NCBI RefSeq assembly: GCF_004153685.1
Contig: NZ_SDQD01000001.1
Coordinates: 744,001-808,000, forward strand
Source of the DNA: Pollutimonas harenae
GTDB taxonomy: Bacteria > Pseudomonadota > Gammaproteobacteria > Burkholderiales > Burkholderiaceae_B
Length of the DNA: 64,000 nucleotides
Direction: 5' to 3'
The notes beneath the pieces were generated by a model. The model had not been told where the DNA came from. It searched no databases and saw only the letters and a list, made by a program, of their open reading frames with translations. The stretch's first letter is position 1. Each line of letters opens with the position of its first letter. Both the position numbers and the translations under genes were made by a program. This document shows, piece by piece, positions 13,032-38,118 of the stretch.

Positions 13032-13328
13032 ATGCCTTTTCTAATAGAAACCTTCGACAAACCCCACACGCAGGCACTGCGCCAGGCTTTGCGCGACAAG
13101 CATCTGGATTTTCTCGAGGAAAACAAATCACTTTTGCTGGCTTGCGGTGCCAAGCTCGAGGATGACGGAACGGGCGGCACCGGCAGTGTTTATATTGTCG
13201 ATCTCGAAACCCGTGCTGAGGCCGAAGATTTCGTCAATGCCGATCCTTTTGCCGAGGGCGGCTTGTTCGAGCGCACGGTGATTACGCGCTGGCGCAAAGC
13301 GTATCTGGGCGGCGAGTGTTATTTATAA
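13032..13328 (+). CDS. YciI family protein
   Basis: A 98-aa single-domain protein of the YciI superfamily, a dimeric alpha/beta barrel fold related to muconolactone isomerases. Visible are the His/Asp region [11 protein letters not shown] and the Gly-rich strand [23 protein letters not shown], whose DPF motif marks the family. CAGGAGACATC precedes the ATG. Its biochemical role is not established; some relatives act in chlorinated aromatic breakdown. It converges on the catalase gene, with a long hairpin between them. Confidence 0.85.
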
Positions 13329-13329
13329 A

Positions 13330-13373
13330 GGCGATGTAATCGGCTGGGCCGATGGCCAGCCGATTACATCGCC
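13330..13373. terminator. Long perfect hairpin between yciI-like gene and catalase gene
   Basis: An 18-bp perfectly complementary stem (13330-13347 with 13356-13373) closes an 8-base loop between two convergent genes. There is no T-run on either strand, so it is not a textbook intrinsic terminator. It may still block transcription from both sides or protect mRNA 3' ends. Confidence 0.6.
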
Positions 13374-13394
13374 TTATGGCAACTACACTTTGAG

Positions 13395-31244: not shown

Positions 31245-33698
<2,454 letters not shown>

Positions 33699-33705
33699 TT
33701 TTGTT

Positions 33706-33722
33706 TGTAGGTGAACCCATAA
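33706..33722 (+). repeat. Left terminal inverted repeat
   Basis: TGTAGGTGAACCCATAA, starting seven bases after the gyrB stop codon. With the inner inverted copy at 33732-33743 it forms a hairpin (ACCCATAAG with CTTATGGGT) that may also serve as the gyrB transcription end. Confidence 0.75.
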
Positions 33723-33734
33723 GTTGAGAAGCTT

Positions 33735-34016
33735 ATGGGTCACTTGCTTTTTATTGATATTCTCTATGCGGGACTGCCAGGCCAGCAAGGTAGAGTGGTG
33801 CTTCCACAGCATTTGCTCGAGTTTGGACAAACGTACATTCCCTTGGCTAGTCTTGCGAAAACCATGAACCCCAAGGCATCCGCATTAGCTCGTAACATGC
33901 AAGGCGAGGTGGAGCTTGTTGGTGCTTTGTCTCTTCCAAACGGGCTACGGCGAGGCGGCTTGATTCGAGTTGCGGATTTGGGACGTATGGCAGTAGCCCA
34001 GGCTGCTAAGGGATAA
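33735..34016 (+). CDS. Hypothetical protein at left end of the element
   Basis: A 93-aa ORF whose ATG lies within the inner end repeat. The second half has the look of a DNA-binding or coding remnant: HLLEFGQTYIPLASLAKT, then GALSLPNGLRRGGLIRVADL. I do not recognise the family. It may be the tail of a mobile-element protein cut by insertion, or non-coding. No ribosome binding site is evident, and the reverse strand is also open here. Confidence 0.3.
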   Translation: MGHLLFIDILYAGLPGQQGRVVLPQHLLEFGQTYIPLASLAKTMNPKASALARNMQGEVELVGALSLPNGLRRGGLIRVADLGRMAVAQAAKG

Positions 34017-34032
34017 CCCAAGCCCGAGCGCC

Positions 34033-34203
34033 ATGGCCAATGCGGACGTGGAGGTCTTTAAAGTCTGGCCGACGTTCTCAGACCAGAAGCCGTTTATCGA
34101 GGTTATGACCGCCGACAAGTTGATCACACTGCAAACGCGGGATCCGGCGCACTTTAAAGTACACCGCTTGAAACTATTTGAAGGCCGGATCAACAGTAGC
34201 TGA
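34033..34203 (+). CDS. Short hypothetical ORF in element
   Basis: A 56-aa ORF starting MANADVEVFKVWPTFSDQKP and ending with a TGA at 34201. It is in a different frame from the ORF before it; the two could be pieces of one frameshifted gene. No known domain was seen and no clear ribosome binding site precedes it. Confidence 0.2.
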   Translation: MANADVEVFKVWPTFSDQKPFIEVMTADKLITLQTRDPAHFKVHRLKLFEGRINSS

Positions 34204-34303
34204 CCCTGTAAGCCACGGCTCTATTGTTTCAATCCAGGCTTATCAAGACGACGATATCGCACGCTTCAAAAAGACCCTGTAACGAATAGCGACTTTCCCG
34301 AAG

Positions 34304-34333
34304 TTGACAATACACATTTGAAAGAACTAAATT
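34304..34333 (+). promoter_or_regulatory. Candidate promoter of the GntR gene
   Basis: A perfect -35 TTGACA (34304-34309) is followed after about 18 bases by TAAATT (34328-34333), a weak -10. The -10 lies inside the left arm of the large palindrome, so a protein bound there would block this promoter. Confidence 0.45.
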
Positions 34334-34374
34334 GAATTCAAATCGAATTCAAATCGAATTCAATTTAGTTCTTT
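34321..34374. promoter_or_regulatory. Large palindromic operator upstream of GntR gene
   Basis: Two perfectly complementary 19-base arms (34321-34339, 34356-34374) flank a centre in which an 11-base unit GAATTCAAATC is repeated directly (34334-34344, 34345-34355) and a third GAATTC follows. The array lies 48 bases before the GntR start and overlaps its candidate promoter. It most likely is the autoregulatory operator of the GntR protein, holding two or three binding sites. Confidence 0.7.
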
Positions 34375-34422
34375 TAGTCCTGAAATGCGTATAGGCCAGC
34401 CTATGGCCCTAAAAATCAGCAC

Positions 34423-35082
34423 ATGAAAACCAATCCGAACGACAACGTTAGCAGGGCCTACAACTATATCCGTGAAAAGATTCTGGATAGGGTTTACCTA
34501 CCTGGTGAGCGCCTAATCGGCAGCGAGATCGCCGAAGCGCTTGGTTCCAGCCGCACTCCCGTGCGCGAAGCTTTTGCACAGCTTGAGCAGAACGGACTGG
34601 TGGAAAAAACCGGTTGGGGCTTTACGGTACGAAGCATGACGCTAAAGGACATCGAAGACCTTTTTGATGTTCGTGAAATCCTGGAGCTTAAAGCGGCCCG
34701 CAAGGCTCTGGCTTATGCGGATGATGCATGGGTCGCCTCGCTGCAAACGATAGTCGCCAAGTCAGGAAAACTGGTCCGGGATGGTCGGCCGGTGGAATCC
34801 ATACGTATGGCACGCAGTGTGTACACATCAATTGCCGAACGCGCCAACAATCGCGTGCTCAGCACAATGTTGGCGGGTATTAGCGACCAGATTCAACTTG
34901 TAGGAGGCATACTGGTATGGCGCTTGCCTTGGCGTGCCGAAGAAGTATTTCAAGAGAATCAGGACATAGTCAGTGCATTTGCCCAACGTGATGCAGATCG
35001 CGTGGTGACCGCAGTACGCCGCCATATTCTACGCAGCCGTGTGCTGCACCTTTCGAATAAGGAAGGAATACGCGCCACCTAA
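34423..35082 (+). CDS. GntR family transcriptional regulator (FadR/FCD subfamily)
   Basis: A 219-aa regulator with an N-terminal winged helix (VSRAYNYIREKILDRVYLPG ... ALGSSRTPVREAFAQLEQNG, about residues 9-65) and an all-helical FCD-type effector domain starting LFDVREILELKAARKAL. FCD regulators usually bind small carboxylates with a metal. The Bug, dioxygenase and hydrolase genes follow on the same strand, so it most likely senses the imported compound or a product. A very large palindromic operator lies upstream. Confidence 0.9.
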   Translation: MKTNPNDNVSRAYNYIREKILDRVYLPGERLIGSEIAEALGSSRTPVREAFAQLEQNGLVEKTGWGFTVRSMTLKDIEDLFDVREILELKAARKALAYADDAWVASLQTIVAKSGKLVRDGRPVESIRMARSVYTSIAERANNRVLSTMLAGISDQIQLVGGILVWRLPWRAEEVFQENQDIVSAFAQRDADRVVTAVRRHILRSRVLHLSNKEGIRAT

Positions 35083-35152
35083 GCGCCAAGTCAGCTCACA
35101 AACAGAACAAGAACATCTAACAATTCTTTCCAGCAACCAAAGGAGAAACCAA

Positions 35153-36112
35153 ATGAAGTTACTACATGTAGCCACGCTCGCAGCGGCTATTGCTGCAGGT
35201 CCAGCATACGCCGCCTTTCCTGAAAAGCCGGTGCATTTGGTCGTGCCTCTGGCCCCAGGCGGCACTACAGACATCGTTTCACGGTTACTGGCCGAGAAAA
35301 TGCAGCAGGCATTAGGCCAGCCAATCGTGATCGAAAACAGGGCGGGCGCCGGAGGCACCATCGCGTCCAATTATGTCGCCAACGCAACACCAGATGGCTA
35401 CACCATTCTAATGGGCACCGTAGGAACGATGGCGGTAGCTCCCGCCATGTATGGTTCCTTGCCCTATGATCCGGCTACCGCCTTCGAGTCAATATCGATG
35501 GTCAACACCGGGCAATTTGTTCTAGTGGTGAATCCGGAAGTCAAGGCGAAGACATTGCCAGAACTGATCGCGCTAGCGCGTGAAAACCCAGGCAAAATCA
35601 ACTACGGCTCTGCCGGCAATGGCAGCACGCTGCATCTTGGCATGGAAATGCTCAAACAGCGTGCTGATATAGACATGGTGCATGTACCGTATAAGGGTAG
35701 CGGCCCCCTGGTGAGCGCACTGGTGGGCGGCGAAGTACAGGTGGGTATACCCGATATTCCTTCGGCTCTGTCCTTTATCGAGGCCGGCCGACTACGACCC
35801 CTGGCCGTCACGGGTGCAGAGCGCGCAAGCTTTGCACCAAACATACCCACAATAGCTGAAGAGGGCTTTAAGGACTTCAACGTGTCAGTATGGCTAGGGC
35901 TGCTGGCTCCCAAGGGTACGCCTCAGGCAGTCATAGACAAATTGAACGCCGCCGTCCATACCGCATTGTCAGATGAAGCCTTGCGTCAGAAATTGTCTGA
36001 GCTTGATTCTCAACCCAAGCCAAGCAGCCCCGACGAATTCACCGCCTTTGCTAAGAGTGAACGTGAAAAATGGAAGCAAATCGTCGACACCGCTGGCGCT
36101 CGTATTCAATAA
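35153..36112 (+). CDS. Bug-family (TctC) solute-binding protein, in the element
   Basis: A 319-aa periplasmic binding protein. A signal peptide (MKLLHVATLAAAIAAGPAYA) precedes AFPEKPVHLVVPLAPGGTTD. ENRAGAGGTIASNYVA and MVHVPYKGSGPLVSALVGGE are the family carboxylate-binding motifs. AGGAGA lies seven bases before the ATG at 35153; longer in-frame starts overlap the GntR gene. There are no TctAB partners in the segment. Being next to a dioxygenase and an FAH hydrolase, it probably brings in their substrate. Confidence 0.92.
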   Translation: MKLLHVATLAAAIAAGPAYAAFPEKPVHLVVPLAPGGTTDIVSRLLAEKMQQALGQPIVIENRAGAGGTIASNYVANATPDGYTILMGTVGTMAVAPAMYGSLPYDPATAFESISMVNTGQFVLVVNPEVKAKTLPELIALARENPGKINYGSAGNGSTLHLGMEMLKQRADIDMVHVPYKGSGPLVSALVGGEVQVGIPDIPSALSFIEAGRLRPLAVTGAERASFAPNIPTIAEEGFKDFNVSVWLGLLAPKGTPQAVIDKLNAAVHTALSDEALRQKLSELDSQPKPSSPDEFTAFAKSEREKWKQIVDTAGARIQ

Positions 36113-36122
36113 GGAGCAATAC

Positions 36123-37238
36123 ATGAGCACTCAAACGTTGAACAAACGACCACCTTTTCAGTCATCCAGCTATCAAGCCAGCTCCTTACGGCCCAGACGC
36201 CTGGAATTGATACACGATGAGAGCGCTTGGAATGCCAGCACTTACCAAGGCAGCGATGCCTGGATCCGTCACCTGACTGCTGAGCACTTAGGTGAAATCG
36301 ATAGCGCTATCAACAAACTGGTAAACCAAGGCCGCACGCTAGATACCGTAACGCAAAAAGACTTCAAAGCAGACTCGTTTGCAGCCTTCCTAAAAGACTT
36401 TAGCGATAACGACGTTGGCAAGCGTGGCTTTGGCATGATTCGGGGTTTTCCGGCTGCCGACTACAGTACAGAACAAGTAGAAATGTTCTTTTGGGGTCTG
36501 GGTACTCTTATGGGGAAATGCGTGTCGCAGAACGCGGCAGGGCATCGCCTTGGCCATGTACGTGACCAAGGCCTGAACTACGACGCGCTAAATGTACGTG
36601 GCTATCAGACGCGTGCCCATCTGCCCTTTCATTGCGATCCATCTGATGTCGTCGGATTGCTCTGCTTTAACAAGGCAGTGGAAGGTGGGCTCAGCTCCGT
36701 TGTTAGCGGCATTACCATGTATAACGAGATACTGCGCGAGCGTCCACAATACCTGGACCTGTTGCATAGGGGCTTTGTTTACGACCGGCGCGGAGAAGAG
36801 ACCGAGTATCAGGGCGCCCTGAGCGATTACGTACCGGTTTTCGGCTATTTTGGTGGTGATTTAAGCATACGCTATGTACGCAAGTCCATGGAAACTGCTC
36901 AAGAGAAACTCGGTATAGATTTCACGGATGAAGAGTACGAGGTACTTGACTACATGGAGCAATTATCCAAACGGGAAGACCTGGTGTATTCCATGATGAT
37001 GGAACCCGGAGACATGCAGTTCTGCAACAACTATCTGGTATTGCATTCCAGGACAGACTACCAAGATCACGAAGAGCTCGAGAAAAAACGGCATATGCTA
37101 CGGCTATGGGTGCAAATCCCAGGCATACGCCAGCTGGCGCCAGAATTCATTGAACTGGATGAGCGATCGGGCTGGAGTCGGCGCGAAGGTATCCCCGCCA
37201 AAGGTGCGCCCGCTCCCAAAGACCTGGAAACCGCATGA
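36123..37238 (+). CDS. TauD/TfdA-family Fe(II)/2-oxoglutarate dioxygenase-like protein
   Basis: A 371-aa protein with the iron-binding pattern of the TauD fold: the HxD pair in RAHLPFHCDPSDVVGLL and a distal histidine in NNYLVLHSRTDYQD, followed by the arginine-bearing segment RLWVQIPG. Such enzymes hydroxylate or cleave small acids with Fe(II), O2 and usually 2-oxoglutarate. AAGGAGC precedes the ATG, 10 bases after the Bug stop, so the genes are cotranscribed. The natural substrate is unknown. Confidence 0.82.
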   Translation: MSTQTLNKRPPFQSSSYQASSLRPRRLELIHDESAWNASTYQGSDAWIRHLTAEHLGEIDSAINKLVNQGRTLDTVTQKDFKADSFAAFLKDFSDNDVGKRGFGMIRGFPAADYSTEQVEMFFWGLGTLMGKCVSQNAAGHRLGHVRDQGLNYDALNVRGYQTRAHLPFHCDPSDVVGLLCFNKAVEGGLSSVVSGITMYNEILRERPQYLDLLHRGFVYDRRGEETEYQGALSDYVPVFGYFGGDLSIRYVRKSMETAQEKLGIDFTDEEYEVLDYMEQLSKREDLVYSMMMEPGDMQFCNNYLVLHSRTDYQDHEELEKKRHMLRLWVQIPGIRQLAPEFIELDERSGWSRREGIPAKGAPAPKDLETA

Positions 37239-37272
37239 CACACCCTCTTATCATCAACTACAAGGCAAACAC

Positions 37273-38118
37273 ATGAAGTTAGTTCGTTTTGGCGCGTCCG
37301 GCGCCGAGAAACCCGGCTTGTTCGATGCACAAGGTGTATTGCGCGACCTCTCAGGGGCTGTACCCGACATCGACAGCGCTCTGCTTGCACAAGACGGGCT
37401 TAAGAAGCTCACCTCCCTTAAGCCTGAAGATCTACCTGTGGTAGAAGGCGAACCACGCATCGGGCCCTGCGTGGGCAAGATCGGCAAGATAGTATGCGTG
37501 GGGCTGAACTATTCAGACCATGCCAAGGAATCCGGCGCCGCAACCCCAACGGAACCCATACTGTTTCTTAAGCCGTCCTCTTCCATCTGCGGCCCTTATG
37601 ATGGTGTGGAGATCCCACGAGGCAGCGAAAAAACAGACTGGGAAGTGGAACTCGGTGTGGTTATTGGCCGGCGCGCCAAGTATGTAGATGAAGCCAAGGC
37701 ACTGGATTATGTAGCCGGTTATTGCCTGGTCAACGATGTATCGGAGCGGGCCTATCAGCTTGAACGCCTCGGCCAGTGGGACAAGGGCAAGGGCCACGAC
37801 ACATTTGCACCCATCGGTCCCTGGCTGGTCACCCGCGACGAAGTGCCAAACCCTCAAGCCTTGCGGCTTTGGACTGAAGTGAATGGCAAACGTTACCAGG
37901 ATGGCTCCACGGCAAATATGATCTTCGACGTTAAAACCTTGATCTGCTATATTTCAAAGTTCATGACACTTGAGCCCGGTGACATCATCTCGACGGGCAC
38001 GCCTGCGGGAGTCGGCATGGGACAATCGCCTGTGCTTTACCTGCGCGAGGGGGATGTTATGAAGTTGGGTATACAAGGTCTTGGTGAACAGCAGCAACGC
38101 TGTATCGCGCCCACCTGA
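37273..38118 (+). CDS. Fumarylacetoacetate hydrolase (FAH) family protein
   Basis: A 281-aa member of the FAH superfamily, Mg2+-dependent C-C hydrolases/decarboxylases of acylpyruvates and related oxo acids. The core begins VGLNYSDHAKESG, with acidic metal ligands in EVELGVVIG and the lower motif LCSF-like region replaced by VNDVSERAYQLER; the end has STGTPAGVGMGQSP. Similar proteins include acylpyruvases and 2,4-diketo-3-deoxy-L-fuconate hydrolase. As last gene of the element operon it may hydrolyse the product of the dioxygenase. The substrate is inferred only. Confidence 0.88.
   Translation: MKLVRFGASGAEKPGLFDAQGVLRDLSGAVPDIDSALLAQDGLKKLTSLKPEDLPVVEGEPRIGPCVGKIGKIVCVGLNYSDHAKESGAATPTEPILFLKPSSSICGPYDGVEIPRGSEKTDWEVELGVVIGRRAKYVDEAKALDYVAGYCLVNDVSERAYQLERLGQWDKGKGHDTFAPIGPWLVTRDEVPNPQALRLWTEVNGKRYQDGSTANMIFDVKTLICYISKFMTLEPGDIISTGTPAGVGMGQSPVLYLREGDVMKLGIQGLGEQQQRCIAPT

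Follow-up and report, generated by a model that had tools for sequence, protein, structure and literature searches.

A 54-bp element at positions 34321–34374 of the 64-kb window (the whole stretch of DNA analysed here) is probably the autoregulatory operator of the adjacent gene for a GntR regulator of the FCD type, with two or three repressor dimers expected to block the -10 region and the transcription start; we put the probability of this reading at about 0.8. The feature conserved among relatives is a tandem of dimer-sized sites, with its phase and, for the most part, its position relative to the -10 hexamer. The initial annotation had proposed an operator for several dimers of the adjacent GntR/FCD protein, or else formation of a cruciform. 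Phased units lie upstream of all seven near homologues of the regulator and the multi-site operator very probably stands; the cruciform is not supported.

Direct reading of the sequence confirmed the annotated 54-bp element with its 19-bp perfect arms, and in an inverted-repeat scan the arms 34321–34339 and 34356–34374 are perfectly complementary over 19 nt; 48 of the 54 array positions are self-complementary. The annotated direct repeats are likewise present: GAATTCAAATC starts at 34334 and again at 34345, and the third GAATTC follows at 34356, each 11 bp from the one before. The first and third GAATTC cores fall within the arms of the array, so that "arms around direct repeats" and "three tandem palindromes" are two names for one set of bases. 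We prefer the second description, a tandem of three 10-bp palindromes with the consensus TTGNATNCAA and a period of 11 bp, and its units are contiguous near-palindromic 10-mers (Table 1). The window's motif pair at 11 bp scores 15/16, and shuffling the window's upstream region 2000 times gave a pair of at least 14/16 once. Searches of the genome found a single occurrence of the array and no second copy. Perfect inverted repeats (arm at least 12, loop at most 20) occur at two places in the window, the array and 13328–13375, the latter being the strongest inverted repeat of the same scan (20-bp perfect arms, 8-nt loop, G+C-rich).

Table 1. Coordinates of the promoter, the putative operator array and the genes downstream in the window.
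Feature	Position	Strand	Remark
-35 hexamer TTGACA	34304–34309	+	consensus scan and layout in relatives
-10 hexamer TAAATT	34328–34333	+	overlaps left arm and unit 1
Left outer arm AAAGAACTAAA	34321–34331	.	complementary to 34364–34374; window only
Operator unit 1 (putative) TTGAATTCAA	34332–34341	.	8/8 consensus positions
Operator unit 2 (putative) TCGAATTCAA	34343–34352	.	11 bp on from unit 1; 7/8
Operator unit 3 (putative) TCGAATTCAA	34354–34363	.	11 bp on from unit 2; 7/8
Right outer arm TTTAGTTCTTT	34364–34374	.	completes long palindrome with 34321–34331
GntR/FCD repressor gene, 219 aa, proposed array binder	34423–35082	+	PF00392 3.6e-13, PF07729 5.6e-22
TctC (tripartite tricarboxylate transporter receptor) gene, first structural gene of presumed operon	35153–36112	+	PF03401 8.5e-84
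TauD/TfdA-type dioxygenase gene	36117–37238	+	PF02668 2.8e-31
Fumarylacetoacetate-hydrolase-family (FAH) gene	37267–38118	+	PF01557 1.8e-74

The initial annotation had the array overlap a TTGACA promoter. The TTGACA hexamer itself lies outside the array, whose overlap is with the -10 hexamer TAAATT; the array covers both this -10 hexamer and the presumed start. With an 18-bp spacer, the two hexamers form the sole match of our scan for sigma-70-like promoters between 33650 and 34430 (TTGACA-18-TAAATT). As one site found compares with an average of 0.6–0.9 in shuffles, the promoter call rests on the conserved layout. A TTGAC -35 with a 16–18-bp spacer also stands ahead of the array in six of the near homologues (L043, L044, L045, L064, L096 and L097), and the array starts between -2 and +5 bp from the end of the -10 hexamer in the window, L043, L044 and L045. 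In L096 and L097, two units at 11 bp overlap the end of a TTGACA-17-TAAATT promoter; in L046, whose array sits in a divergent intergenic region, no promoter was found by the rule used. The window thus has palindromes of about 10 bp over the promoter of the regulator's own gene, a promoter called by consensus only. Unit 2 of L096 and L097 overlaps the regulator ATG, and the just 9 bases between the -10 hexamer and that ATG suggest that the regulator transcript is leaderless in these two relatives.

As annotated, the array precedes a GntR/FCD gene, which begins about 60 bp past the last unit. Its product falls within the FCD (FadR/VanR) subfamily of GntR regulators, with PF00392 at 49.4 bits (cut-off 27) and PF07729 at 78.9 bits (cut-off 24.3). 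A single-sequence structure prediction reached a mean pLDDT of 59.9 and TM-scores of 0.27–0.46 among the matches listed, too poor for a helix count. When the FCD part of the 34423–35082 product was aligned to 7xp0, Y and N stood opposite two H positions. Because two of the three positions that we take to be the metal-binding histidines of FCD domains appear replaced, the effector domain of the regulator may be without metal. For the FAH gene, the last of the presumed operon, the nearest NCBIfam model is 2,4-didehydro-3-deoxy-L-rhamnonate hydrolase (414.7 bits, below the cut-off of 500). Between gyrB and the GntR gene, a terminator-like hairpin lies directly after gyrB at 33715–33740, shuffles averaging 1.1 such sites, and an open reading frame at 33735–34016, between gyrB and the array, matches no Pfam or NCBIfam model. 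In comparison with three congeners, DNA similarity ends with the end of gyrB (about 33694–33696), and none of the three congeners searched has a GntR orthologue (best identity 27–35%); because of these two observations, the GntR-TctC-TauD-FAH genes (33695–38118) may be an insertion.

The regulator is rare: at 1e-30 it was found in 3 of 268 family genomes and 3 of 399 order genomes, and at 1e-40 in an alignment search in 2 of 369 class genomes, its own genome being included each time; no copy was found in plasmids. All five homologues from these searches carry tandem units upstream, namely three in L043, two each in L044, L045 and L046, and four in L064 with spacings of 11, 11 and 10; the L043 array is a perfect 34-bp palindrome. 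A later alignment search of 399 order genomes added two further close homologues, L096 and L097, which were examined after the motif had been fixed, the other five having been seen before. Searching 4 genomes from the family of G403 and 5 from that of G269 yielded no new near homologue.

Conservation upstream of orthologues, on which the initial annotation had staked its operator proposal, is present. Two units 11 bp apart with a score of at least 13/16 occur in the 260 bp upstream of the match in 7/7 near homologues (L043, L044, L045, L046, L064, L096 and L097), as against 2/56 remoter FCD genes; the Fisher p of 6.5e-8 is optimistic because five of the seven loci counted had themselves contributed to the consensus. 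The cleaner tests of conservation are the two unseen loci, L096 and L097, and the genome-wide result given below. The far set combines 29 genes from 54 listed matches (30 with usable loci, one being the window's own gene), six distant relatives from a contig search, all counted as far, and 21 of 26 further matches, of which three repeat L044, L045 and L046 and two are near. The same count yielded 1/7 near and 6/56 far genes at a spacing of 10 bp, and 0/7 and 2/56 at 12 bp. Among 2000 shuffles each of L043, L044, L045, L046 and L064, none reached a score of 14 at 11 bp, and 2 of 838 background pieces did. These two pieces are L012 and L013, both upstream of FCD genes, mutually similar and from two congeners; they are also the two far genes that pass at 11 bp. 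Single units scoring at least 7/8 are found in 7/7 near but also 17/56 far upstreams, which makes a lone unit weak evidence. Spacing is not uniform: in L064 the 11-bp pair (13) scores lower than the 10-bp pair (15), and an unbiased palindrome test favoured a spacing of 10 in L064 and of 12 in L046. We rejected the array as a general feature of FCD genes, as the fixed motif matches just 2/56 far genes; when the upstreams of 35 remoter FCD genes were searched without bias for pairs of 10-bp palindromes at 11 bp, three weak matches emerged (L013, L032 and L036; shuffle p 0.01–0.02).

Genome-wide placement was assessed by scanning 10 genomes for the two-unit pattern with up to 2 mismatches; a reversed control pattern gave 0 matches across all of them. 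The pattern occurs at a single place in each of G105 and G269, at the regulator, and in G000 at the array only. In G403 it occurs at three places, each of them on the regulator's 5,630-base contig: the first lies between the regulator and a TctC gene that is divergent and truncated at its N-terminus (Pfam positions 131–273), another in the start region of a further TctC gene, and the remaining one near the contig start beside a gene without a Pfam match. Further occurrences comprise the array and one more place in G114, two places each in G267 and G003, and one in G002; G001 and G708 have none, and the array of G708 itself (L064) fails the pattern. This placement links the motif with the regulator and partly also with its transporter genes. 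By Pfam, TauD neighbours were identified in G114, G105, G403 and G269, and TctC neighbours by Pfam in G114, G403 and G269 and by eye in G105, while in G708 ABC-transporter and Rieske-oxygenase genes, not TctC/TauD, lie behind the regulator.

Similar architectures were also seen away from the near homologues. In L051, TTGAATACAAATCGAATACAA directly follows TATAAT at positions 1502–1522 ahead of another GntR/FCD gene (Pfam), and L052 has the same arrangement at 1502–1522 with a gene that is near-identical by eye; both represent the array-type architecture outside the near clade. At L057 (L070, 5381–5412), three tandem units at 11 bp lie between a CoA-transferase gene and an HMGL-like gene, and no GntR gene was recognised by eye in the 12-kb stretch L070 around them. 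In L053 and L056, at about 1500–1522, TCGGATTCAATTCGGATTCAA-type tandem repeats in 11-bp phase stand beside a short-chain-dehydrogenase-like gene (by eye), with a TetR gene (Pfam) on the other side of the repeats in L056; these repeats are an 11-bp-phased site of another regulator type.

What sets the window apart is its outer 11-bp arms, found in the window only among the arrays compared. Flank complementarity amounts to 12/14 pairs here and to 0–6/14 in eight other arrays, and, by composition, 11 complementary flank pairs in a row would arise by chance with a probability of ~2e-7. The outer arms were rejected as degenerate further units, each matching just 3/8 consensus positions in phase; our guess is that they arose by snap-back copying across the existing palindrome. 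Together with the 19-bp arms, a predicted RNA hairpin (the folding energy of 34300–34430 lies 8.1 sd below shuffles) and the perfect 34-bp palindrome of L043 could suggest that the array acts as a DNA or RNA secondary structure, be it the annotated cruciform or, in read-through transcripts, a terminator or attenuator hairpin. We consider this very unlikely: the low flank complementarity elsewhere argues against a shared long palindrome, our scan found no terminator-like site at the array, and no Rfam match was found in 33650–34450, so that a cruciform or RNA hairpin was rejected as the conserved feature. Moreover, the left arm lies almost wholly upstream of the inferred start, and RNA from this promoter would be without it; a separate terminator-like hairpin stands after gyrB at 33715; and the two-unit arrays of relatives, which form no long palindrome, presumably serve the same function.

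According to the operator model, three contiguous 10-bp dimer sites (TTGNATNCAA, with G3 and C8) would have their centres 11 bp apart, which would place neighbouring dimers on nearly one face of the DNA, spanning the -10 hexamer to about +25. As long as effector is absent, the array would be filled by two or three dimers that block RNA polymerase, and the filled array would silence gntR and the downstream tctC-tauD-FAH genes, until binding of an effector to the FCD domain released the dimers. The regulator's SRTP stretch, which holds the arginine matching Arg45 of Atu1419, is kept in the window and in all seven near homologues; past it, L044 has I for V, and the residue after SRTPV is R in the window and K in L096 and L097. 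Given the G3/C8 geometry and this kept arginine, each unit is plausibly a complete dimer site. The likeliest occupancy, judged from sequence, is two or three dimers with some cooperativity. Counted against the model are the variation in unit number from 2 to 4 among relatives, the spacings favoured in L064 and L046, the missing promoter call in L046, the K after SRTPV in L096 and L097, the different genes behind the regulator in G708, and the missing N-terminal extension of the NanR type.

A simpler occupancy would have one dimer, or one tetramer, bound at a time, with the extra units acting non-cooperatively, as alternative registers or weak accessory half-sites that raise the effective affinity. 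Weaker half-sites 7–12 nt from the site centre are described for many GntR groups (Suvorova 2015, PMC4494728), and the tetramer of Atu1419, a VanR-group regulator, is reported to be able to bind a single palindrome (PMC7797058). We regard this occupancy as rather improbable, for neighbouring units in the window and L043 are near full strength (7–8 of 8) and not weak boxes, and the 11-bp pair is kept in 7/7 near homologues. That the array instead serves a different transcription factor which happens to control the operon could be argued from the similar units before the HMGL-like gene of L057, where no GntR gene was recognised by eye nearby, and from the tandem units of different sequence at L053 and L056, the latter with its TetR gene. 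The genome-wide link to the GntR gene in G105, G269, G403 and G000, and the similar array ahead of another GntR/FCD gene in L051, speak against it, and we give it little credence.

Multiple adjacent sites are already known for GntR-family regulators (Suvorova 2015, PMC4494728), and the operator model shares elements with several described systems. NanR of E. coli, also of the GntR/FCD type, binds a (GGTATA)3 operator as three cooperating dimers, a cooperativity that is reported to need a 32-residue N-terminal extension (PMC8012715). The proposed system is alike in pairing an FCD-type repressor with a three-repeat operator, here three units equally phased at 11 bp. The NanR repeats are direct 6-mers, in contrast to the 10-bp palindromes with an 11-bp period in the window. 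The window regulator also differs in having no NanR-type N-terminal extension of ~32 residues, as the GntR domain match in the 219-aa protein starts at residue 10, and no in-frame ATG, GTG or TTG was found upstream of the gene's start codon. AphS/BphS, GntR-family regulators of Betaproteobacteria, resemble it in having several palindromic sites ahead of regulated genes, which were read as cooperative; their consensus differs (AAATmTCGAkATTT), and the portion of that source consulted describes no contiguous 11-bp phasing (PMC6449761). The portion consulted of PMC10282184 does not give the BphS operator sequence. By analogy with NanR and AphS/BphS, cooperative binding of several dimers at the array is plausible.

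Closer in the geometry of single sites is Atu1419 of Agrobacterium fabrum (VanR group of FCD), whose structure 6z74 is the second-best solved relative of the regulator by sequence. Crystallised on DNA, each of its subunits reads a half-site, Arg45 contacting G3 of the 10-bp palindrome ATGTATACAT, and this palindrome lies over the -10 of two target promoters, with autorepression (PMC7797058). The window units share the 10-bp palindrome with G3 and C8 but are contiguous, unlike the Atu1419 palindromes, which are described as lying 109 or 190 bp from each other, a distance that a tetramer can bridge with a loop. AlkR of Pseudomonas aeruginosa, an FCD repressor of the VanR group, likewise has a palindromic site covering -10 regions (PMC12042122), in its case one 13-bp palindrome and two weak extra sites, with no phased array described in the portion consulted. 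PMC5377504, which contains TTGAATTCAA and "GntR", was rejected as an operator precedent, the two being a PCR primer and a reference title in the text consulted. Contiguous palindromes at 11 bp over a -10 hexamer and tied to this clade were not found in open-licence literature. Multi-site operators of GntR regulators are thus known from NanR and AphS/BphS, while the contiguous 11-bp-phased palindromes of this clade appear to be a new form of them.

More tentatively, the arrays may represent a clade-specific operator code, in which contiguous 10-bp palindromes one helical turn apart would seat FCD dimers side by side without an N-terminal extension, forming a short repressor filament over the -10 and start whose length (2, 3 or 4 units) would tune the switch; the outer arms in this genome would then be a functional extension. 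The array illustrates that a striking long palindrome can consist largely of short palindromic sites in tandem. For this clade of FCD repressors, several members of which stand ahead of TctC/TauD genes, it provides a predicted operator code, and the natural arrays of two, three and four units make the packing and cooperativity of FCD dimers on DNA directly testable.
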